36,114 bases of DNA from Candidatus Heimdallarchaeota archaeon (GTDB taxonomy: Archaea; Asgardarchaeota; Heimdallarchaeia; Heimdallarchaeales; Heimdallarchaeaceae). The notes under the pieces were generated by a model. That model saw only the letters and a list, made by a program, of their open reading frames with translations, was not told where the DNA came from and did no database searches. The position numbers and the translations under genes were made by a program. Positions 16,185 through 28,251 of the stretch are shown here, in pieces. The number at the start of each line of letters is the position of its first letter. The stretch's first letter is position 1. The stretch spans positions 1 through 36,114 of the forward strand of contig JAEOTE010000065.1 in the NCBI GenBank assembly GCA_016839945.1. The letters run 5' to 3'.

Positions 16185-16224
16185 AAGTCAAAAATAAAAA
16201 ATTGAAATCTAATAGGTGAAACAA

Positions 16225-18459
16225 ATGTCATTTATAGAACGTTTACAATTAACACCCGAGGAGAAACAAATTTATCAACTTCTCCTTGGCAGCGGACAAC
16301 TAACAGCTTCTGAAGTAGCTCAATTCAGTAACTTACATTATTCTAATGTTAAAACAGCATTGGATTCTTTAATCAATAAAGGCGCAGTGGGTGCATCTGA
16401 GGGATACATCAATAAGTTCTACGTAAAAATCCCACTTGGATATTTAGCTACTACTAGCGATAAATTGAATGAAGATATCAATCAAAACATAAGTGAGACA
16501 AAATCCTTTATTGAAAACAAAAAGAATACTTTTGAAAATCTTAGAGGATCATTAACCTCACAATTATCAGAATCTGTTGGTAGGAAAAAAGCAGAAATAG
16601 ATCAGAAGTTAAATCAAACTTCATCACAATTTCAGACTTCAGCACAGCAAAAGAAAGAAAACCTTTCGCAAAAGTCATCTGAACTAGCTTCTAAATGGTC
16701 TTCTATTAATAACAACCAAAAAACGTCCATACAATCCTCTGTAAAAGAGGTTTTAGGCTCTAATGTAGAAAACCTCAATCAAGCTAAAACCTCCATTAAT
16801 ACCATCGTAGAAAATGTAAAGCAGAAAAACATTGAATCAATTGCTAATTCTAATGCTGAAATTGAACAAAGTGTAGCTCAATCTATTGAAAAAATCCAAA
16901 CTACTGCTCAAGCTTTAGGTCCTAAAGTAGATGAGCTTCGACAATCTTTGACAACTGATTTAGAAGGAATAGTTGAAACATTCAAACAAAGCACAGATAC
17001 AACAAAATTAGATGTTCGAGCATTTAATAGAACTCAGGCAGATAAGTATCTTGGTTATTCGGAAGAAACCACAAGGAAAACAGGAGAAGCAATAGATGGA
17101 ATTTCTGAATCAGCGACAAGTTCACTATCAGAACTAAATAGTTCTCTCGAATTAGTTTTAGATAGAAAAGTAGAAGATTTATCCCTTCAAGTACAAGAAG
17201 CATTATCTGCTTTGAATGAAAAAGTAACTGGTATCAAAGAGAGTTTGAAAGAAGAATTATTACAACAAAAGAATGTAACAATTTCTAATACAATATCACA
17301 GATTAAAGAATCTATGGCTCTTAAATATACAGACCTTCAAAATAATGAACAAACTCAAAGGAACAATATGATTAGTGAAAGAGATATTTTCACACAAAAA
17401 TTGGAAGCTCATTATACTGAAACTTTGGATAATTACAATCAGAATATTAATACAATTAATGAGAATACTAAAACAAGATTAAATACTTTTGCAGAAGGTT
17501 TAGCCACTCAATTCAATGAATTATCTGCTAATACAGAAAACAACTTGAATTTACATTTACAAGCCTTCAAGGATCTATCGCAGCAACTAAATACAACTAC
17601 AGGTGAAGAATTGGCTATTGGTTCAGATAGATTGAAAGAGAAATGGACTGATTTAATAGAAAAAGCAGAAACTTTGATACAAGAAAGTGAAGCAAAAATC
17701 AATCAAAATTATCAAGAAGTAAATAATCTTATTCAAACAACTAAAGATACGATATCTGAAGAATTAGATAATTACTTGCAACAAACATTGGATTCAACAA
17801 TAGCAGTAACAAATGAAGTTCTTAATGTGTCCAAAACAGGTATTGATGAAGGAAAGGAGTTACTATCTGGAAACTTAAACAATGAAATTGATGAATCAGT
17901 AAAATACTTCGAAGATACAGGAAGGAAATTTAACGATACTGCAAACTATCTAATTAGCGCTACTATGAAGCTAAAAAATGATTTTAGAGATTTAGAAGCT
18001 ACATCAAAAGAAATTCAACTTCCACCAATCCAAACTACTTCAATAGTAGGACTTGATGCTGTTTTGGATCACATGGCAAGAATAATAGGCAGTACAAAAA
18101 GCAATGTAACTATCCTTTCGCCAAAACATGAATATATACCTCTTGAAGCTGTAAAAGGTTTACAAAGAGCTAATATTACACTGGTAACTACATTAGATGA
18201 AGAAATTAACAAAGATTGGATAGATAATGCGGCTTCTACAGCTGTAGATGTAAACGTAGAAATAAGGAAACTTAAGGGAGTAGATATACCTCAATTTATT
18301 GGAGTAGAGAGAGATCAAGAAGAGGTTTTAATAGCTGCTCAAGATGAAGCAACAGGAGAAGTAGTTGGAATTTTGAGTCAATCTACATATTTTGCAAAGC
18401 TAGCATCTTTTGTTATTATATCCCATCATGCTAAAGGTAATTCAACAAAAATCAGGTAA
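16225..18459 (+). CDS. TrmB-like DNA-binding protein with about 500-residue coiled coil
   Basis: This protein of about 744 residues has three parts. Residues 1-75 are a TrmB-type winged helix (LTPEEKQIYQLLLGSGQ, ASEVAQFSNLHYSNVKTALD, KGAVGASEGYINKFYV). Residues about 80-590 are nearly pure helix, rich in Gln, Asn, Ser, Glu and Lys, with long heptad runs and almost no Pro; this is a very long coiled coil. Residues 600-740 resemble the sensor part of TrmB regulators (VGLDAVLDHMARIIGSTKSN, VTILSPKHEYIPL). Normal TrmB proteins are 250-350 residues with a short coiled coil. The start at ATG 16225 has GGTGA 5 nt before it; GTG 16216 is less likely. It could be a regulator or a chromosome-bridging protein. 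Confidence 0.85.
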   Translation: MSFIERLQLTPEEKQIYQLLLGSGQLTASEVAQFSNLHYSNVKTALDSLINKGAVGASEGYINKFYVKIPLGYLATTSDKLNEDINQNISETKSFIENKKNTFENLRGSLTSQLSESVGRKKAEIDQKLNQTSSQFQTSAQQKKENLSQKSSELASKWSSINNNQKTSIQSSVKEVLGSNVENLNQAKTSINTIVENVKQKNIESIANSNAEIEQSVAQSIEKIQTTAQALGPKVDELRQSLTTDLEGIVETFKQSTDTTKLDVRAFNRTQADKYLGYSEETTRKTGEAIDGISESATSSLSELNSSLELVLDRKVEDLSLQVQEALSALNEKVTGIKESLKEELLQQKNVTISNTISQIKESMALKYTDLQNNEQTQRNNMISERDIFTQKLEAHYTETLDNYNQNINTINENTKTRLNTFAEGLATQFNELSANTENNLNLHLQAFKDLSQQLNTTTGEELAIGSDRLKEKWTDLIEKAETLIQESEAKINQNYQEVNNLIQTTKDTISEELDNYLQQTLDSTIAVTNEVLNVSKTGIDEGKELLSGNLNNEIDESVKYFEDTGRKFNDTANYLISATMKLKNDFRDLEATSKEIQLPPIQTTSIVGLDAVLDHMARIIGSTKSNVTILSPKHEYIPLEAVKGLQRANITLVTTLDEEINKDWIDNAASTAVDVNVEIRKLKGVDIPQFIGVERDQEEVLIAAQDEATGEVVGILSQSTYFAKLASFVIISHHAKGNSTKIR

Positions 18460-18892: not shown

Positions 18893-21829
18893 ATGGAAGT
18901 ATTAACTTGCGTTTATCTAAAAACTCTTTCACAAGTTGATGGTGAGAATCCTCGCTCAACTCTTCTAATTGATGTAGATGGACAAAACTACAACTTAAAC
19001 CTCTGGAATCCTTGGAACGAAATAGTTGACTATCTTCAACCATATACAACTCTAAAATTATATAGTGTAAAAAAAATCTCTGGAAAAGATTCAACATATT
19101 TCTCAACAGACTCAAACACAATCGTTGTTGCGGATCCTGATATTCTTATAAATGCGACAGCAATTAATAATGTTTCATACTGCTCCCGAAGTTATTATTT
19201 GAGTGAAATGATTGGTGAATCTATTTCTCCTTATATTGCAGTAAGAGGTTCTATTATTCACGATTGTTTAAGTTATGCCATCATGAACAATACAAAACCT
19301 TCAGAGAATTTATCGCAAGTTTTAGATATTTTTTCTCTTCAGTATGAGAATTTTGGTTACTCCAAAGAAGATGTGCATCAAGAATTAAGAGAAATGGCAG
19401 AATGTCTTGATCCTTTTGTAGAAAACCTATCAGGTGACTCTCTTCCAGAAACACTATTTTTGTCACCTGATTTTGGAATAAGAGGAAGAATTGATCTTTT
19501 GAATAATGGTCACATCTTTGAATTGAAAACAGGTAAAATCTCTGAAAATAATGACGCACGACCTTCAGATATAAGGCAAGTTGCATTATACCGGTATGGT
19601 CTAGGAGATTATACTGCAGATAAGGATCCTGAAAAAGGTTCTATCCTCTATGTAGGTACTAACAAGGTTGTAAGAAAAATAGTAGAACCAAACTGGAAGA
19701 TGCTAAAATATGCTATGGGCAAAAGGAACATCGCATATATGGTTTCATATCAAGGTTATATTCCTCTGATACTTCCAGAATCTGCAAGGAGAAAATGCCA
19801 GAAATGTTCAATAAAGCATTTCTGTTATATTGTGTGCGCAGGTTTAAATCAACAACGAAACTGTTCAGAATGCCCACATAATGAACTCTGTAAACAGCAA
19901 GCTCTTCCAGAATCATATCGAGAATATTTCAACCGTTTTTCAAGATGGATAAGAGAAGAGAAAAATGAATCAAGAAGAAATTTCTCTGATTTATGGAATT
20001 TGAATGTTGATCAAAGGGTCGCAAAAGGAAAAACGATTCAAAATATGATTCTTGAAAATGAACAAAGTGAAAATGGAAACACTAAATTACTTTTCTCTTG
20101 CGATAACAAATCAGAACTTCGCGAAGGAGATATTGTTGTTTTAAGTGATGGCAAGGTTCTTCACGGACCTATAGCTACAGGTGTAGTTTCATCTGTATCA
20201 AATACATCAATTGAAGTAGACACTAGAGCAATTGGAGACAAAATGTCTGTGTTAGACTTGTATTCAATAGATGTAGGTTTTCGAAGACAACAGAGAGGTT
20301 TGTTTAATCTTGTTTTCAAGAAGAAGGATTTTAGAGACATTATTGTTGAAGAAAAACCTTCTCTTATTGATGAAGTTGAGGGAGATTTTATTCAAAACAA
20401 CCAAACTCAAAACAAATCTATAGAGAAAATATTAGGCACCCAAAATTATTGTCTCATTCAAGGACCTGCTGGAACAGGTAAAACTCACGTTATTGCAAAA
20501 GTAGCCATTATACTAGCTGAAAAAGGGGAAAAAGTTTTACTAACAGCATTTACTAATCGAGCAGTTGATAATATCTGTTTATATCTATTAAGAAACAATT
20601 ATCACAAATTCATTAGATTAGGATCTTCTCATTCTATTCTCAGAGAAATAAGAGATTATACACTTAGTGAATATAAAGAAAGAAACGAAGAAAAATCCAC
20701 ACAAAGTATTTTAGAGGATTTTCCAATAATTGTAGCTACTACTTCGACAATTTCAAATCCTGTATTCGAGAAAATAGGAACTCAAACAATTATAATTGAT
20801 GAAGCAAGTCAAATGACAGAACCAACAGTATTATCAGCTCTAATTGAAGGTGATAGGTTTATACTAGTTGGTGATCACAAGCAACTTCCACCAGTAGTGC
20901 AAAGTTCTAAGGTATCCGAAGAAGGGATGAGTCTCTCTCTCTTTGAGAGATTAGCAAAAGCTAATTCTAGTAACGTTCATCTCTTACAACAACAATTTAG
21001 AATGAATGAAAAACTAATAGATTACTCAAACAAACAATTTTATGATAAAAAACTAAGCTCCTTCAATGATGAAATAAGAAAACAAAATCTATCTAAATTA
21101 TCTAATTATATTGGAGATTATAATGAGATTCAACACAGTAGTATTTATGATCCAGACTATCCTTTGATTTTTGTACCTGTGAAAGGTAATTTTCAACATA
21201 AGAAAAAGATTAACGAAGAGGAAGCTAAAATTGTTGGTCAAATTGTCTCAAACTTTCTTAAATTAGGATTGAATATCGAACAATTAGGAGTTATTTGCCC
21301 CTATAGAGGTCAAGTCAGTGAAATTAGACGCTTAGTACATCCTACAGTAACTGTTGATACTGTTGATCGTTTTCAAGGAAGTGATCGTGAAGTCATTATA
21401 CTTTCTTTAGTCGAATCTCAAATTCATGGAAGTAAAGGTTTTGCTGATGAACGTAGACTTAATGTTGCTTTAACTCGAGCTAAGAAAAAACTAATTGTTG
21501 TTGGAGATCCTCAAGGAAAACAAGACGTATTAGAAAATTATATCAAATATCTAAATGAAAATGCTAAACAGATTGATGCTATAGAACCAAAATCCCCAAC
21601 TTCAATTGAACAAGATTTGATAATTGTAGCAGATAATATTAATAAAACTGCAAGGATACTAAAAGATGCTACTGCCAAGTGCTTAATCTGTTTTGAGCAA
21701 ATTCAAGATGATGCAATTGAATGTCCTAACTGTAAATCTCTATTTCATATTGATCATATCATTAAATGGATTAAAAATTATGATCGTTGCCCATATTGTA
21801 AAACTAAACTGTCGGCATTTCTTAAATAG
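18893..21829 (+). CDS. Dna2-like nuclease-helicase with C-terminal RING-type zinc finger
   Basis: This 978-residue protein joins three parts. Residues 90-335 are a RecB/Cas4-type nuclease: His123 (GSIIHD), Asp201 (GRIDLL), Glu210 and Lys212 (FELKTGK) and Gln229 (QVALYRYG). Cys97 and C-x2-C-x5-C at 302-311 match the Dna2 iron-sulfur cluster, and another Cys group (CSECPHNELC, 324-333) follows. Residues 500-890 are a superfamily 1 Upf1/Dna2 helicase: GPAGTGKT (524-531), DEAS (636-639), VGDHKQLPP, QQFRMN, VDRFQGSDREV and NVALTRAKKKL. Residues 930-969 are a RING-like finger, C-x2-C-x10-C-x2-C-x4-H-x2-H-x10-C-x2-C with the typical WIKxxxxCPYC ending. Dna2 processes flaps and broken ends. The RING is an unusual addition. 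Confidence 0.93.
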   Translation: MEVLTCVYLKTLSQVDGENPRSTLLIDVDGQNYNLNLWNPWNEIVDYLQPYTTLKLYSVKKISGKDSTYFSTDSNTIVVADPDILINATAINNVSYCSRSYYLSEMIGESISPYIAVRGSIIHDCLSYAIMNNTKPSENLSQVLDIFSLQYENFGYSKEDVHQELREMAECLDPFVENLSGDSLPETLFLSPDFGIRGRIDLLNNGHIFELKTGKISENNDARPSDIRQVALYRYGLGDYTADKDPEKGSILYVGTNKVVRKIVEPNWKMLKYAMGKRNIAYMVSYQGYIPLILPESARRKCQKCSIKHFCYIVCAGLNQQRNCSECPHNELCKQQALPESYREYFNRFSRWIREEKNESRRNFSDLWNLNVDQRVAKGKTIQNMILENEQSENGNTKLLFSCDNKSELREGDIVVLSDGKVLHGPIATGVVSSVSNTSIEVDTRAIGDKMSVLDLYSIDVGFRRQQRGLFNLVFKKKDFRDIIVEEKPSLIDEVEGDFIQNNQTQNKSIEKILGTQNYCLIQGPAGTGKTHVIAKVAIILAEKGEKVLLTAFTNRAVDNICLYLLRNNYHKFIRLGSSHSILREIRDYTLSEYKERNEEKSTQSILEDFPIIVATTSTISNPVFEKIGTQTIIIDEASQMTEPTVLSALIEGDRFILVGDHKQLPPVVQSSKVSEEGMSLSLFERLAKANSSNVHLLQQQFRMNEKLIDYSNKQFYDKKLSSFNDEIRKQNLSKLSNYIGDYNEIQHSSIYDPDYPLIFVPVKGNFQHKKKINEEEAKIVGQIVSNFLKLGLNIEQLGVICPYRGQVSEIRRLVHPTVTVDTVDRFQGSDREVIILSLVESQIHGSKGFADERRLNVALTRAKKKLIVVGDPQGKQDVLENYIKYLNENAKQIDAIEPKSPTSIEQDLIIVADNINKTARILKDATAKCLICFEQIQDDAIECPNCKSLFHIDHIIKWIKNYDRCPYCKTKLSAFLK

Positions 21830-21897: not shown

Positions 21898-23730
21898 TTA
21901 TTTTCTGAATCTTCTGAATGCTAGTATAGATGCTAGTCCAAGGAATGATAGGAATATTAATCCAGCTATTCCTGTTTCTGTTGCAGTTACACGTACTGTG
22001 AAACCTGCAGCTTCAACATAATCAATAGCTAAATCAAGATCAAATGCATATGGAACTAATTCATCATTAAATCCTACTAGAACATTTGGGAATGGACAGG
22101 TTGCGGCAGAGCCAAGACCTTCAAGAATTTCATCAACGATGGTTTGACGTGGGCATGAGTGACTAATAGCTTTACGGATGAATTTAGCAGCTTCAGGGGT
22201 TCCTAGAGGTGTTAATTCACCAGTACCTAAGATTGGGTGTTTCATGTTGATTGACATTTCTTGATGAGATGGATCTCCAATTAATACACCTTCAATTAAA
22301 GTCTCACCTTCAAAGTCTGATAAGACTGGGTAGTATTGTGCATCCATGATGTCATAGTTTCCTAGTTTCAATTCTGAAATAGCGTTATCCTTACCCATTA
22401 CATGGGTTATGTAAAGATCAGTTAGGAAGGGTTGAACACCACCAGAAATAATGGTATCATCCCAGTATGGGTTTGGTACCATGTGAACTGTGCTGCTTAC
22501 TGAATCAAAACTGCTTAACATAAATGCACCAGGAGATTTGACTAGGTTGAAACCAATAGTTGGGTCTCCTGGGGGTAATCCAAAGATGTCATAACCATGG
22601 GTTGCAATTAATTCTTCTACACCAGTACCGTCGCCTTTATGTTTGTCAAGAATATAATAAGCTAGAAGACTTAATGGGAAGTTATACATAGTAACTAAAC
22701 GGTAAACCAATTGACCACCAGCACCAGGAATGGTTATTTCTATAGAATCATTAGTTCCAAGGAATCTAACTAGATTACCATATTCGCTTGAAGCCATTAC
22801 TGGAGACATAAATAATTCCATTGTGTATTTAATATCTTCTGGAAGTACAGGTTCACCATCATTGAATTTAGCATCTGGGTCAAGATTAACAGTTATGTTA
22901 ATTGGGTGAGTTGCACCTACGATGGGTCCATCAATTGTCCAGTTCTTAGCGATAACAGCTCCCCATTCACGTGTAACTTGTTCTCTTTGAACTAGTTGTG
23001 CATGGATCATTTGCATCCATTGAAAGTCGTAAAATGAGGCTCCTTCATAAATGTTGTATTCTCTAAGATCTGCTGGGATACAGTATTTGATGATATTATC
23101 ATCAGGGTCATCCCAGAGCCATGGACGTTGATTACCGCTAGCAAATAACATATCATCTATTCCAGTAAGACCAACTTTGTATCCAAAGAGTGATTGTGGA
23201 TAAATGATGGCAATTGCAGGAAGATCGTCGAAAATAATTTCTTGTATGTCAAATGCTAGTTCAATTCTTGCAACTGGATCTAATTCAGCAAGATAATCAT
23301 CTAGCATATCATCGTATACTGGATTGGAATATTGATAATGGTTGTCACCTGCTGGATGGATACTCAATGTGTCAAAAAGACCAGTGAGATCTAGATCCAA
23401 ATCCCATGACCATCCGACAAAGAGAAGGTCGTATCCTCCATCTTCATATACTGGAATATAATTATAATCCAATAATGGATGTGCCCATGTTCTTGGACCT
23501 ATATTACCCCATCCTGTAGATTCATGGAATGATATTCCAATACCTGCTTTTGGTAGCAATTGCTCCATTAGTAATGACCATTGGTTACGGGCTGGACTTG
23601 TGTTTGGCGATAGTATGTTAATCGAAAAGGCTGTTTGAATTGTAACGTCTTGTGCTAGTACATTACCAGCAACCATGGAAAAACCAAATAAAACAATTAG
23701 GCTTATGCCTAACAATGCTTTTTTATTCAT
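21898..23730 (-). CDS. Family 5 (oligopeptide-type) solute-binding protein, apparently circularly permuted, membrane anchored
   Basis: The 610-residue protein has a signal peptide (1-27, ending VLAQ) and a C-terminal membrane helix with basic tail (about 587-610, ending FRRFRK), so it should stand on the outer face of the membrane. Parts typical of the end of family 5 proteins come first: GGYDLLFVGWSWDLD (98-112), the YQYSNPVYDDML stretch and DIQEIIFDDLPAIAIIYP (161-178). Parts typical of the beginning follow: DLREYNIYEGASFYDFQW (221-238), IAKNWTI and FNDGEPVLPEDIKYT (289-303). The AIDYVEAAGF element comes last, just before the anchor. ATG 23730 is chosen because AAGGTGA lies just before it. 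No permease genes of the oligopeptide type are near. Confidence 0.88.
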   Translation of the reverse strand: MNKKALLGISLIVLFGFSMVAGNVLAQDVTIQTAFSINILSPNTSPARNQWSLLMEQLLPKAGIGISFHESTGWGNIGPRTWAHPLLDYNYIPVYEDGGYDLLFVGWSWDLDLDLTGLFDTLSIHPAGDNHYQYSNPVYDDMLDDYLAELDPVARIELAFDIQEIIFDDLPAIAIIYPQSLFGYKVGLTGIDDMLFASGNQRPWLWDDPDDNIIKYCIPADLREYNIYEGASFYDFQWMQMIHAQLVQREQVTREWGAVIAKNWTIDGPIVGATHPINITVNLDPDAKFNDGEPVLPEDIKYTMELFMSPVMASSEYGNLVRFLGTNDSIEITIPGAGGQLVYRLVTMYNFPLSLLAYYILDKHKGDGTGVEELIATHGYDIFGLPPGDPTIGFNLVKSPGAFMLSSFDSVSSTVHMVPNPYWDDTIISGGVQPFLTDLYITHVMGKDNAISELKLGNYDIMDAQYYPVLSDFEGETLIEGVLIGDPSHQEMSINMKHPILGTGELTPLGTPEAAKFIRKAISHSCPRQTIVDEILEGLGSAATCPFPNVLVGFNDELVPYAFDLDLAIDYVEAAGFTVRVTATETGIAGLIFLSFLGLASILAFRRFRK

Positions 23731-23786
23731 ATTTTTATTCACCTTTTTATATTCCACCAAAAACATTTCTTATAGGTGGAACTAGT

Positions 23787-23998: not shown

Positions 23999-24472
23999 TT
24001 ATGAGACATTGACCATTAATTTCATAACTTGCCATAATATCAATGCAAGAAGAACTAGGAAACCTCCCCCAAAATAATACGTGAAAGAGTTGAAAGTTGC
24101 TTCCTTAAAGCTTTCTTTACTTATAGGATCTGATCCAAATATTTTTTGTTTAATACCTGATATAAACGCTGATTGACCAATATTACCAAGACATGCACCG
24201 ATAATAATTACCAAAGCTACCTCACCATAAATAATATATTGCATAAAATCCAAAATAAAAATTAATTCATTGTCGAAGCCATAAAGAAATATCAATATTA
24301 TTATTAAGTCGATAATAGAAAAAACGAATGCAGTAATAAATCCAAGAAATGCAATTCTGGGCCAATTTATTTTAACTCTGTCTCCCTTTTCTTCTTTTTC
24401 TTCTGTCTCTTTCTTTTCGACTTCTATATCTTCGACTTCTTTACTTTGCCATTTCTTCTTTTTTTCACTCAT
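23999..24472 (-). CDS. Three-helix membrane protein with charged N-terminus, partner of the ABC ATPase
   Basis: This 157-residue protein is not of a family I recognise. Residues 1-36 are almost all Lys, Glu and Asp and should be cytosolic. Hydrophobic helices lie at about 40-63, 80-98 and 132-152, with a conserved-looking GACLGNIGQSAFISG loop between. The start ATG at 24472 overlaps the stop of the ATPase gene by 8 nt, so the two are cotranscribed and probably made in a fixed ratio. A longer frame to 24529 has no support. It is likely a membrane subunit of, or accessory to, the ATPase; this is inference from overlap. Confidence 0.75.
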   Translation of the reverse strand: MSEKKKKWQSKEVEDIEVEKKETEEKEEKGDRVKINWPRIAFLGFITAFVFSIIDLIIILIFLYGFDNELIFILDFMQYIIYGEVALVIIIGACLGNIGQSAFISGIKQKIFGSDPISKESFKEATFNSFTYYFGGGFLVLLALILWQVMKLMVNVS

Positions 24473-25493
24473 TCTTTTCACTTCGAGCTGTAATAGCAGA
24501 ACCGCAGTAATTACAGAATTTTGAATCATCAGTTACCATATTACCACACATTGAACAGGTTATTATTTGATTATTGTTCTTAAAACTGCTTGGTTCAAAT
24601 ATGGGTTCTAAGATTATTTTTCCTTTTTGTGCAATTATTGAAAAATGTTTGGGATTGTTTAGATTTTGAATTATATTGGTAGGAATGGCTAATCGATTTT
24701 GTCTGTCTATTTCCAACAATCGACTCTTTTCCAACTTACGAAGTTGAATTTCACTACTATGTTGCCCTACAATTATTCCATCTCTTAATTCCAAAATTCT
24801 ATCTGCTCTGGAAGCAACTTGTTGAGAATGAGTGACTATACAAATTGCAATACCCAATTCCTCATTAATCCTGTCAAAAAGATCAAGTATATTTTCTGAA
24901 GTTAGAGCATCCAAATCTCCTGTTGGTTCATCTCCAATTAAGATTTTGGGATTTGTGATAAGTGTTGTAGCAATTGCAGCTCTCTTTTTTTCCCCACCTG
25001 AGAGTGTGTTTTCTTTTTTATTTCTTTTCTCCCAAATACCTAAAAATCTTAGTAGAAATTCTGTTTGTTCTTTAACTACGCTAGGTTTGATTTTCGCGTA
25101 ATATCCAGCTAGTTCAATATTTTCTTTGACTGTTAAATGAAGCAACAATTTGCTATCCTGAAAAATCACACCTGCAAATCTTCTTCTTGCTTTTATAATC
25201 TCTTCTAAGGATGATCGTGTAATGTCTTTTGTAAGATATTTCCAAAAAACTTTCCCAGAAGTGGGTTTTGTTATTCCAGAAATTATGCTTACTAAAGTTG
25301 TTTTACCTGAACCACTGGGTCCAATTAGAAATAATTTCTCTTTAGGATAAACCTTGAAAGAAACTCCTCTCAATGCTTGAGTTTCAATTTTACCTGTTTT
25401 GTATATTTTTATTATATCTTCTGCTACTAGTAGTGGTAAATTATTATTTTCATCTACCGTATGTCGCGAAGTAGAGAGCTCTGCGTTAGTCAT
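24465..25493 (-). CDS. ABC transporter ATPase (MacB/LolD-like) with C-terminal zinc ribbon
   Basis: This 342-residue protein has an ATPase domain of the MacB/LolD type: GPSGSGKTT (Walker A), FQDSKLLLHLTVKENIELA (Q-loop), TLSGGEKKRAAIATTL (signature), ILIGDEPTGDLD (Walker B and D-loop) and IVTHSQQVA (H-loop). After about residue 240 there is an extra part ending in a zinc ribbon, CSMCGN and CNYCGS. I chose ATG 25493 (MTNAELSTS) because AAAAGGAGAAAA precedes it and a TATA-like TTTATACTTAA lies at 25541-25551. ATPases of this type normally work with FtsX-fold permeases. No such permease is adjacent, only two unfamiliar membrane proteins. Confidence 0.92.
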   Translation of the reverse strand: MTNAELSTSRHTVDENNNLPLLVAEDIIKIYKTGKIETQALRGVSFKVYPKEKLFLIGPSGSGKTTLVSIISGITKPTSGKVFWKYLTKDITRSSLEEIIKARRRFAGVIFQDSKLLLHLTVKENIELAGYYAKIKPSVVKEQTEFLLRFLGIWEKRNKKENTLSGGEKKRAAIATTLITNPKILIGDEPTGDLDALTSENILDLFDRINEELGIAICIVTHSQQVASRADRILELRDGIIVGQHSSEIQLRKLEKSRLLEIDRQNRLAIPTNIIQNLNNPKHFSIIAQKGKIILEPIFEPSSFKNNNQIITCSMCGNMVTDDSKFCNYCGSAITARSEKNE

Positions 25494-25602
25494 AATCTCT
25501 GTTTTCTCCTTTTCATGCAAAATGCAATTTCGATAAGAAGTTAAGTATAAACATCTATGAAGTTTACTGTTTTTGATAGAATCACAATGACTGTGGCTAA
25601 TA

Positions 25603-25632
25603 GGAAAAATCGAAAGACCTCTTAATCTTTCG
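25603..25632 (-). terminator. Hairpin plus T-run after the 338-residue membrane protein gene
   Basis: On the minus strand CGAAAGA-(8 nt)-TCTTTCG (25611-25632) is followed by ATTTTTCC. It starts 24 nt after the stop of the membrane protein gene at 25656. With the new TATA-like box at 25541-25551, this separates that gene from the ATPase gene as a transcription unit. Confidence 0.55.
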
Positions 25633-25655
25633 TTCAAACTTCTTTATTTATGAGT

Positions 25656-26672
25656 CTAAGCCTTTTCATCGAAATCCATATCTGGAGTTCTACGTGCGTC
25701 TATAGCACCAGTGATTTTACGATAGAAATAGTCTTTATTTCTCCATATAGTGTCCAGATTTCCAATTAAAAGGAAAATACCATAAACTAGAAGAAACGGA
25801 ATCATATACAATAACCAAGCTGTAAAACTAACACCTATCGGATGGTATTGTCCTTGTTCACCACAACACTCTTGAAATTCGAAACCATAAACTAGAAAAG
25901 TGTTGGATCTTCTATCTACGAAAAGTGAATAGAAGAATTCTCTGAAATCCAGTGATATGTTGCCTGTCATTAGAGCTACTGAAACTCCAACAACTAAACT
26001 TGCCAAAAACATAATGACTAAGAATGTTCTTGTTTTTGGAAGGAATTTGGGTCTTTTTTGAACTATTTTAAATACTATGAAATTGTAAGTTCCTGCAACA
26101 ACAGCCCCTAGAACAATAGGCATTATAACGATCAAAAAATATGCTAACGTATATTTAGGATTATTTGGAAACGCTAATTCGCCTGATTTATTTAAAGGTA
26201 AGTTAGATCCCCAAATGTTTTCCAAACTGTAAAATCTGTGATTTTGAGCAAAATTCTGTTCTGCAACTAAATCATAACCATTTCTGAAGTAACCACTATC
26301 TCCTAGCATGAACAAACAAAAACCTAATATTAAAACCACCATTGGGGCGAAAAACCATACTAATACTGGTTTAGCTATTATACGTGAGCTTGGATCTTGT
26401 CCCGAATTTAATCCAAATGTAAGAAATACTGAAACCCAGTAATATGGACCTTCTAGAAAACTTTCTCCTCTCAAAGTATTTGTAATGCCCATTATTGTTA
26501 CACTTATCAACCAAGTTGCAAATAGGTAAATACCCATCGGAGAGTGAAACCTTTTCCAAATGTATTTTAGAGCTGCTAAAATCCAATCTCTCCAAACACC
26601 AAAAAAGGTTCTTGGGCCTAATTCTGTAGAGCTTAAAGATTTTTCTTCAGATTTTACATTATCGGTGCTCAT
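25656..26672 (-). CDS. Multi-helix membrane protein of unknown function beside the ABC ATPase
   Basis: This 338-residue protein is not recognised. Likely membrane helices lie at about 45-67, 100-125, 172-197, 214-237 and 284-308. A loop of roughly 45 residues (about 127-172) and another of 45 residues with a Cys-Cys pair (FQECCGEQGQYHP, about 266-278) probably face one side. The C-terminal 35 residues are charged. It lacks the FtsX large loop or the EAA loop of classical permeases. It lies just upstream of the ATPase gene on the same strand but has its own terminator, and it is divergent from eutA. It may be the translocating subunit of a new ABC-type system; this is inference from position. 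Confidence 0.75.
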   Translation of the reverse strand: MSTDNVKSEEKSLSSTELGPRTFFGVWRDWILAALKYIWKRFHSPMGIYLFATWLISVTIMGITNTLRGESFLEGPYYWVSVFLTFGLNSGQDPSSRIIAKPVLVWFFAPMVVLILGFCLFMLGDSGYFRNGYDLVAEQNFAQNHRFYSLENIWGSNLPLNKSGELAFPNNPKYTLAYFLIVIMPIVLGAVVAGTYNFIVFKIVQKRPKFLPKTRTFLVIMFLASLVVGVSVALMTGNISLDFREFFYSLFVDRRSNTFLVYGFEFQECCGEQGQYHPIGVSFTAWLLYMIPFLLVYGIFLLIGNLDTIWRNKDYFYRKITGAIDARRTPDMDFDEKA

Positions 26673-26811: not shown

Positions 26812-28251
26812 ATGAGTAGTAACGAAGAATACACTTTAGCTTTGACCAGCTGCGGAATAGACGTTGGTACAACAACATCACACCTGATCTTTTCTAAACT
26901 CAAATTAGAAAAAATCTATACTCCTAGAGGAGTAAAATTTGAGGTTACAGAGAGAGAAATATTGTATAAGGGTCAGATTATCTTAACTCCTTTGATAGAC
27001 GGTCAGAATATAGATTACTTAAAACTCGTAGAATTTCTTAAGGAGGAATATATACTAGCTAAGATGTCAATTGATGATATCGACACTGGTGCAGTTATTA
27101 TAACAGGTGAAAGTGCAAAAAAAGAAAATGCAGAAGAATTGGTTAAATCATTAGCTCATAAGGCAGGTAAATTTGTTTGTGCAGCAGCAGGACCGAATTT
27201 TGAATCAGTTATTGCAGCGATGGGTTCTGGAGCCGTTCAATATTCAAAAAAATCACAAAAAAAAGTAATCAATATTGATATTGGTGGTGGCACTTCAAAT
27301 ATAGCAATTATAGAAAATGGAGAAATAATTGAAGCTGCTTGTGTTAATGTTGGAGGAAGGTTGTTAGCTTTTGATAAAAATAACAAAATTGTAAGAATCG
27401 AATATCCAATCAGATATTTAGAAGAAAAGTTAGGAATAAATTTCCAATATGGATTAGAAATCACAGAGAATCAAAAAAAGGAAATTGCAAAAATCCTAGC
27501 GGAAAGCTTATTTGAAGTCTTAGATCAGAAAATTGTTTCAGAAATTGCAAAAAAACTCTTGATGACAAATGAAATAGACCACAAAGAAGCAATAGATGAA
27601 TATATCTTTTCGGGAGGAGTCGCTGAATATATTTACAACAAAACTAAACAAGAATATGGTGATTTAGGTAAACATCTTGGCGAAGAAATTAGAAGAATAA
27701 TAAATAAAAAGAAACTCATAATACAAGAGCCCAAGGAATTAATACGTGCAACTGTAATTGGTGCAGGTCAATACACTCTCCAAGTTTCAGGAGTAACAAC
27801 TCATATCTCTGATGAAGATGTGTTGCCTATCTATAACATCCCTGTTCTAGAACCAAAAATCAACAATAGAGAAATAACAGAAGAAAACATTAAGCGAGCA
27901 ATAATCAAAAGTTTTAGTCTTTTTGACATTGATGAAGGCGAAGCTATTGTTGCTCTTTCATTCAAAGGAGCAATTGGTGGTTCTTATGCGGGATTAACAA
28001 CGTTTGCTAAAGGAGTGGTCGGCGCAATACCCAACACAATTAAAAAAGAAAAACCAATCATAATGGTTTTTGATAGAGATGTGGGTAATTCAGTAGGAAA
28101 TGTAATGAAAAGAGAAACCGATGCAACCAAGAATATCATATCTATAGATGAAATAATTGTTGAAGAAGGAGACTTCATAGATATAGATGTACCTAAAGCA
28201 GGAGGACAAGTTGTTCCTGTAGTTGTTAAATCATTAGTTTTTTCGAATTAG
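26812..28251 (+). CDS. eutA: Ethanolamine ammonia-lyase reactivating factor EutA
   Basis: EutA is an ASKHA-fold ATPase that frees damaged cobalamin from ethanolamine ammonia-lyase so that the enzyme can bind fresh cofactor. The 479-residue protein has the family pattern. GIDVGTTTSHLIFS is the phosphate-1 motif near residue 15, TGAVIITGESAKKENA follows, FVCAAAGPNFESVIAAMGSG is EutA-specific, and VINIDIGGGTSNIAI is phosphate-2. IFSGGVAEYIY and ATVIGAGQYTLQVSG are further family elements. It looks complete. The lyase subunits EutB and EutC are not within this window, so its client must be encoded elsewhere. The neighbours do not form a eut operon or microcompartment cluster. Confidence 0.93.
   Translation: MSSNEEYTLALTSCGIDVGTTTSHLIFSKLKLEKIYTPRGVKFEVTEREILYKGQIILTPLIDGQNIDYLKLVEFLKEEYILAKMSIDDIDTGAVIITGESAKKENAEELVKSLAHKAGKFVCAAAGPNFESVIAAMGSGAVQYSKKSQKKVINIDIGGGTSNIAIIENGEIIEAACVNVGGRLLAFDKNNKIVRIEYPIRYLEEKLGINFQYGLEITENQKKEIAKILAESLFEVLDQKIVSEIAKKLLMTNEIDHKEAIDEYIFSGGVAEYIYNKTKQEYGDLGKHLGEEIRRIINKKKLIIQEPKELIRATVIGAGQYTLQVSGVTTHISDEDVLPIYNIPVLEPKINNREITEENIKRAIIKSFSLFDIDEGEAIVALSFKGAIGGSYAGLTTFAKGVVGAIPNTIKKEKPIIMVFDRDVGNSVGNVMKRETDATKNIISIDEIIVEEGDFIDIDVPKAGGQVVPVVVKSLVFSN

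Follow-up and report, generated by a model that had tools for sequence, protein, structure and literature searches.

Circularly permuted solute-binding proteins (SBPs) are already known from TpMglB-2 (Tp0684) of Treponema pallidum, a natural permutant of a Type I glucose SBP ('Type Ic') with a solved structure and ligand binding, which was judged fully functional in vitro and for which the authors raise a possible link between topology and tethering (PMC4990184). Here, we analyze a 36,114-nucleotide stretch of DNA (the window; contig JAEOTE010000065.1, assembly GCA_016839945.1) from Candidatus Heimdallarchaeota archaeon, which encodes a permuted SBP of another type on the minus strand at positions 21898–23730. 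The two proteins are alike in being natural permutants that are tethered, by prediction in the case of the window protein; however, TpMglB-2 is a bacterial Type I sugar SBP with a fourth hinge crossing, whereas the proteins studied here belong to family 5, are archaeal, were cut at four sites, retain the hinge crossings and carry a C-terminal anchor. In sequence family, predicted fold and signal peptide, the window protein resembles DppA, OppA and NikA (family 5 or cluster C; PF00496), from which it differs in its rotated order, the predicted location of both ends in the other lobe and its predicted C-terminal membrane anchor.

Searches of one open library brought up no permuted family 5 SBP. 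The searched text of a paper on Asgard transporters (PMC7997004) does not mention permutation, solute- or substrate-binding, or oligo- or dipeptides, and passages of a study of non-sequential alignments (PMC2213659) name no permuted SBP; the one periplasmic sugar-binding protein that appears there is aligned in reverse with a kinase to which it is not related. Relative to TpMglB-2, the present case differs in the protein family (family 5), the occurrence in archaea, the majority status in three genomes, the four cut sites, the unpermuted sisters and a separate case of a permuted DppA. A whole receptor family permuted at four sites and accompanied by unpermuted sisters allows selection on the position of chain ends and anchor, rather than on the fold, to be tested in membrane-tethered receptors, and it bears on possible peptide uptake by Asgard archaea.

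A family 5 binding protein with rotated segment order

The preliminary description of this gene, made from the sequence alone, proposed that the motifs closing ordinary family 5 proteins precede those opening them, between an intact signal peptide and an intact C-terminal anchor. The gene and its parts are as follows.

21898–23730, minus strand: circularly permuted family 5 SBP, 610 residues (open reading frame, Pfam, phmmer, relatives, model, HHalign)
23650–23730, minus strand: predicted signal peptide, residues 1–27 (model helix 3–24, low confidence; hydrophobic N-termini of relatives)
23110–23649, minus strand: residues 28–207, segment ending ordinary family 5 proteins (phmmer on solved chains; HHalign)
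23092–23112, minus strand: residues 207–213, loop linking the old C-terminus to the old N-terminus (alignment of 83 rows)
22000–23109, minus strand: residues 208–577, segment starting ordinary family 5 proteins, ends at AG[FY] (model on DppA; HHalign)
21904–21969, minus strand: residues 588–609, predicted C-terminal membrane anchor and basic tail (model; relatives)

The open reading frame (ORF) extends to 21898–23766 (minus strand; 622 residues) through an in-frame upstream ATG at 23766; the start at 23730 fits the relatives, which are of equal length, and the frame from there is uninterrupted. We take residues 28–207 to represent the second part of domain III and the return to domain I.

PF00496 (SBP_bac_5) is the sole Pfam family found in the window protein, with a score (86.9 bits) well above the cut-off of 32.4. 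In the numbering of the 622-residue form, it covers only residues 291–591, as profile positions 19–280 of 368, and the Pfam scan gave no match to the profile end after residue 591. Only part of the permuted proteins is thus seen by Pfam as a family 5 SBP, because the chain is circularly permuted. Comparison with solved chains by phmmer placed the segments in swapped order, with residues 515–577 matching 306–368 and residues 73–177 matching 399–505 of 5f1q_A, and residues 518–577 matching 264–322 and residues 100–207 matching 383–490 of 8efz_A. When the unpermuted relative P0113 was divided into an N-terminal (residues 1–386) and a C-terminal (404–630) piece, the latter matched residues 47–212 (111 bits) and the former residues 222–589 (152 bits) of the 622-residue form. 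Similarly, HHalign aligned residues 28–207 of the window group with positions 398–578 of the ordinary profile (E 7e-74) and residues 208–577 with positions 33–386 (E 3e-117). The proposed permuted order is thereby borne out: the profile alignment is rotated rather than colinear, and the first segment, far from being an unrelated domain, shares homology with the C-terminal region of relatives that are not permuted. Every segment of the two-lobed fold is present, and HMMER, HHalign and structural comparison agree that the segments are not colinear but rotated. The window protein is therefore best placed in a circularly permuted subgroup of SBP_bac_5 and not among its ordinary members.

In AlphaFold models, the window protein and an unpermuted relative (predicted local distance difference test, pLDDT, 91 each) are built from the same elements in rotated order. 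The window model is confident over residues 28–207, and its residues 212–580 superpose on residues 1–343 of DppA (1dpp); the model of the unpermuted relative fits DppA along its whole length. Permutation had been expected to move the hinge and both termini. The termini are indeed relocated; a move of the hinge is not supported, since the alignment retains both of its crossings and what shifts is the position of the two chain ends. Foldseek returned template modelling (TM) scores, relative to the query, of 0.28–0.44 over mixed segments among the best 50 matches listed, low values that are expected of a sequential aligner and were not used for segment order. By our reading of their titles, these 50 matches are of the family 5 type; the missing match to a Type I sugar-binding fold excludes nothing.

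Both ends of the chain are intact. A signal-like N-terminus is seen in the model and in relatives (hydrophobic in 101 of 105 full-length permuted relatives tested), and the modeled anchor has a counterpart in the C-terminal hydrophobic stretch of all 83 aligned permuted proteins. In 72 of the 83 aligned rows, exactly seven residues separate the columns of W206 and I214, across the joined old ends. The anchor link has a median length of 12 residues past AG[FY] in permuted proteins vs 28.5 residues past the last core Trp in unpermuted ones, two measures taken from different reference points. As in the preliminary description, we infer that the C-terminal helix may provide fixed anchoring. The gene is under purifying selection. 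Compared with L031 over 606 codons, its proportions of nonsynonymous (pN) and synonymous (pS) differences are 0.076 and 0.285; the values are 0.051 and 0.240 for the first 200 codons and 0.089 and 0.307 for those that follow. With an intact frame and an order common to its relatives, it is, as had been surmised, not a broken gene.

Distribution among Asgard archaea

Homologues sharing the order emerged from a search with 118 matches, of which profiles assigned 107 to the permuted and nine to the ordinary order, leaving two undecided; seven of the nine ordinary relatives were first recognised by eye. A search with P0113 (best 120 of 122 matches listed) added relatives. Sorting 211 proteins and 13 ORFs from the window's genome with the two P0113 pieces yielded 118 permuted and 72 ordinary proteins, 27 that matched the first piece only and seven that matched neither.

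The permuted order is the majority form in the three genomes read. In the window's genome, a draft of 186 contigs that is 88% complete, PF00496 finds 13 ORFs (16 matches). Ten of the 11 full-length family 5 genes were found permuted and one (L001) ordinary; the remaining two are a contig-end piece of unreadable order (L012) and a shortened permuted gene (L013). The latter, at positions 1105–2340 of its locus, encodes a permuted SBP of 411 residues without most of domains I and II, with an extra region ahead of its C-terminal hydrophobic stretch. In G050, which matches the complete chromosome CP084167.1 of Candidatus Heimdallarchaeum endolithica, PF00496 occurs at 13 places, comprising 11 full-length genes, all permuted, and two fragments. 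In the single-contig genome G175, 12 of 14 family 5 ORFs read permuted (four at site I and eight at site IV, as defined below) and two ordinary; this count does not include one weak match in a short, stop-containing frame.

Subfamily B (L004; 164 matches, best 120 listed) shares this architecture. The window-group and unpermuted-group profiles were too weak to read it, both listing 103 of the best 120 as matching the N-terminal part only, and its order was therefore settled by HHalign and a general profile, S5, built from 35 unpermuted family 5 proteins (558 positions). In HHalign, subfamily B is colinear with the window group (E 3e-44, 112 sequences), whereas the ordinary profile aligns with it in rotated order, and all 11 sampled members read permuted with S5.

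Of 195 genomes sampled from the window's phylum, 53 match the window group at 1e-20, a count that includes both orders. Full-span matches, and hence permuted proteins, occur in the window's family, in another family of its class and in other classes; in three families of the window's own order, the best matches have the ordinary arrangement. One genome of that order (G037; L199 and L200) encodes an ordinary SBP in a Dpp operon as well as permuted SBPs grouping with subfamily B. The permuted SBP P0187, whose record names candidate division Zixibacteria, reflects either gene transfer or a binning error.

Four cut sites

Reading ORFs with S5 revealed four places at which the chain is cut. At site I, the window type, proteins start at about 365–402 and end at about 343–396 (S5 positions, here and below). 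Site II (start about 300, end about 296) is represented by L193, L150/L204 and L198, plus L194/L195 in pieces, and site III (429 and 429) by L151 alone. Site IV (start about 232, end mostly 225–229, 248–253 in two rows) comprises eight genes of G175 (L185–L190) and L196. The Pfam profile independently recovers sites II and IV, for example with positions 197–354 preceding 3–178 in G142 and 143–339 preceding 2–141 in G175. Read via L181, a permuted DppA discussed below, sites I to IV lie near DppA residues 340–345, 273–280, 394 and 205–209, respectively. With relatives cut at four different places, it thus seems that nature has re-wired a classic receptor repeatedly.

Among the rows shown, the N-terminus is hydrophobic in all permuted proteins of sites II–IV whose start is complete, and a C-terminal anchor is visible except where the end is out of view or the ORF is a piece. 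A Heimdall-CTERM sorting domain (28.3 bits against a cut-off of 24) closes the site IV protein of L190 (2728–4662), suggesting that some anchors may be processed; this profile has no match in the window protein.

Evolutionary history

Trees were built from sequences re-rotated into ordinary order. In a quick tree of 97 rows, the site IV proteins form one group (100), the site II protein of L198 (G181) joins the ordinary L192 (100) apart from other site II rows, and the site I protein of L203 (G018) lies apart from the main group. L198 and L203 possibly represent additional independent cuts, at site II and site I, respectively; like L192, they are long or are absent from the more careful tree. 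The latter contains 65 of the 97 rows, 32 having been dropped (near copies, long branches, size), including L198, L192, L203 and L171, a partial ORF of 420 residues that counted as unpermuted in the larger tree. Long branches were flagged for L001 with site IV. In the 65-row tree, the proteins of sites II and III group together (100/99), adjacent to site I proteins. Forcing all main permuted rows into one clade worsened the likelihood by 95.6 log units (approximately unbiased, AU, test, p 4e-14), and forcing a DppA-like pair into the main group worsened it by 29.9 log units, both groups having been named after the first tree had been viewed. Rejection of the single-clade tree implies that the ordinary order was regained or that permutation recurred. 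These trees call for at least two origins of site I, together with either a single return to the ordinary order or many additional cuts at site I.

A far-reaching scenario, to which we give roughly even chances, is that Asgard family 5 SBPs are serial permutants: an early cut in domain III was followed by later shifts of the cut to different sites, the same sites were cut separately in further lines (a true DppA included), one more line was opened in domain I, and a single lineage went back to the ordinary order. All would have retained the signal peptide and the C-terminal anchor, with the position of the anchor as the target of selection. It is possible, though less likely than not, that the P0113 group has retained its ordinary order as an ancestral state and that site I was cut many times independently. 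Independent site I events do seem to occur, as the DppA-like pair is placed outside the main group (AU p 0.0013), but the P0113 group is nested inside permuted lineages of the 65-row tree, with the permuted P0190 as its sister (96/85), and by our own reading of that tree at least six separate main-group cuts would be needed vs one cut and one return.

The permutations probably arose when a gene was duplicated in tandem and the outer portions were then lost, with tandem SBP arrays as the material. The same route, from tandem copies, has been proposed for saposin/swaposin and DNA methyltransferases (PMC3320104). Two or three SBP ORFs are found in 19 of 78 loci (one including a fragment, and order not tested for each), and such common tandem neighbours would suit permutation by duplication. 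No fused tandem intermediate was met among the SBPs, for which no dedicated scan was made.

Probable ligand and importer partners

We consider it highly probable that the window gene encodes a permuted family 5 SBP of the usual predicted two-lobed fold, likely a peptide receptor for a shared Dpp-type importer, with a re-sited anchor. Sequence comparison establishes the rotated order, the joining of the old ends and the family-wide occurrence, and the models predict the Dpp/Opp-type fold. The chain would run from the predicted signal peptide through the closing and then the opening segment to the predicted membrane anchor. Both ends would have moved from the lobe of domains I and II to the domain III lobe, which the short link would hold near the membrane. 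A peptide-like ligand would likely be caught between the lobes and handed to a Dpp-type ATP-binding cassette (ABC) importer common to several such receptors, and the permutations were probably retained because they re-site the anchor. The likely partners are those DppB/C/D/F operons of the window's genome in which no binding protein is encoded. Dpp operons without an adjacent family 5 SBP gene are present both in the window's genome (C133 and C62, with no PF00496 match on either contig) and in G050. Such sharing would resemble P. aeruginosa, whose DppBCDF permease is reportedly served by several family 5 SBPs, DppA1–A5. These five have the ordinary chain order.

That an importer can be served by a permuted SBP is best supported by L181 (G175), a DppA permuted at site I, the site of the window protein. 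Its residues 27–182 align with 373–526 and its residues 194–550 with 27–368 of E. coli DppA (E 1.4e-91), and its gene is located between dppB-dppC and dppD-dppF on the opposite strand, an arrangement shared by L191 (G142). R383 and D436 of DppA bind the dipeptide (PMC12136057), and the equivalents of both are kept in L181; the alignment of the window protein pairs D110 with D436 and does not extend to R383. On the DppA equivalog profile NF043070 (cut-off 1005), L181 scores 320.7 bits and the window protein 25.8 bits, neither reaching the cut-off. A permuted DppA in a Dpp locus provides a ready pair for comparison with E. coli DppA. The site IV gene of L190 is also preceded, 1.2 kb upstream, by a DppB-like ORF (184 bits to DppB of C65).

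Several observations weigh against assigning the window protein to a Dpp-type importer or the usual fold. No sequential aligner can superpose the permuted model as a whole, so that the full-length fit is composed of two parts and a control model. D110 aligns with D436 of DppA at a position that is mostly Gly in the family (G in 43 and D in 18 of 83). The window protein reaches no NCBIfam SBP cut-off. Moreover, none of the 78 loci of its group contains a Dpp permease (flanks of at most 10 kb, often cut by contig ends), nor do the stretches around L180 (site I), L185, L186 and L189 (site IV) and L193 (site II). Adjacent permease and ATPase genes, which would mark a Dpp importer subunit, accompany L181 and L191 and were found at none of the 78 loci of the window's group.

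These points leave room for a permuted and folded protein that acts as a surface receptor or scavenger without delivering to a Dpp importer, or that serves the adjacent LolD-like ATPase and two membrane proteins, encoded as follows.

23999–24529, minus strand: MEM176, membrane protein of 176 residues in a conserved cluster upstream of the SBP gene (no Pfam match)
24465–25637, minus strand: ABC ATPase with a C-terminal zinc ribbon, LolD/FtsE-like below those cut-offs (profile scans, synteny)
25656–26672, minus strand: MEM338, membrane protein of 338 residues (synteny; homologue in the Dpp operon of G037)

We regard this alternative as unlikely. Apart from the missing permease, it draws on the joint occurrence of MEM338, ATPase, MEM176 and SBP genes in 11 of 78 related loci, including CP084167.1 (L043 and L047 being cut by contig ends). 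However, the genes for glutamyltranspeptidase, EutA, helicase and TrmB are syntenic with the SBP cluster too, so that this linkage proves little; a homologue of MEM338 lies inside the complete Dpp operon of G037 with its unpermuted SBP (blastp 4e-16, profile 9e-27), and the permuted DppA proteins of L181 and L191 are encoded in Dpp loci. An unrelated domain of 200 residues before a C-terminally truncated SBP, as the Pfam match to profile positions 19–280 in the second half of the chain might by itself suggest, is scarcely credible, given that residues 28–207 match the end of the same solved chains and of the unpermuted profile and are confidently modeled. An assembly error, gene rearrangement or pseudogene, conceivable in a draft of many contigs, is just as improbable in view of the order common to most homologues, the presence of such genes in two single-contig genomes and the purifying selection.

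Genomic surroundings

Beyond the cluster, the plus strand at 18893–21829 encodes a superfamily 1 (SF1) helicase that carries a Dna2/PD-(D/E)XK nuclease part and, at its C-terminus, a RING-like match that stays below the cut-off (21.5 vs 27.3 bits). At 16216–18459 (plus strand), a protein of 747 residues begins with a TrmB-type helix-turn-helix and is syntenic with the SBP gene in several loci; its middle matches an apolipoprotein profile below the cut-off, suggesting a long coiled coil. An EutA-like gene (ethanolamine utilisation) at 26812–28251 (plus strand) lies between the cluster and a gamma-glutamyltranspeptidase gene, and both are syntenic in Heimdall genomes.
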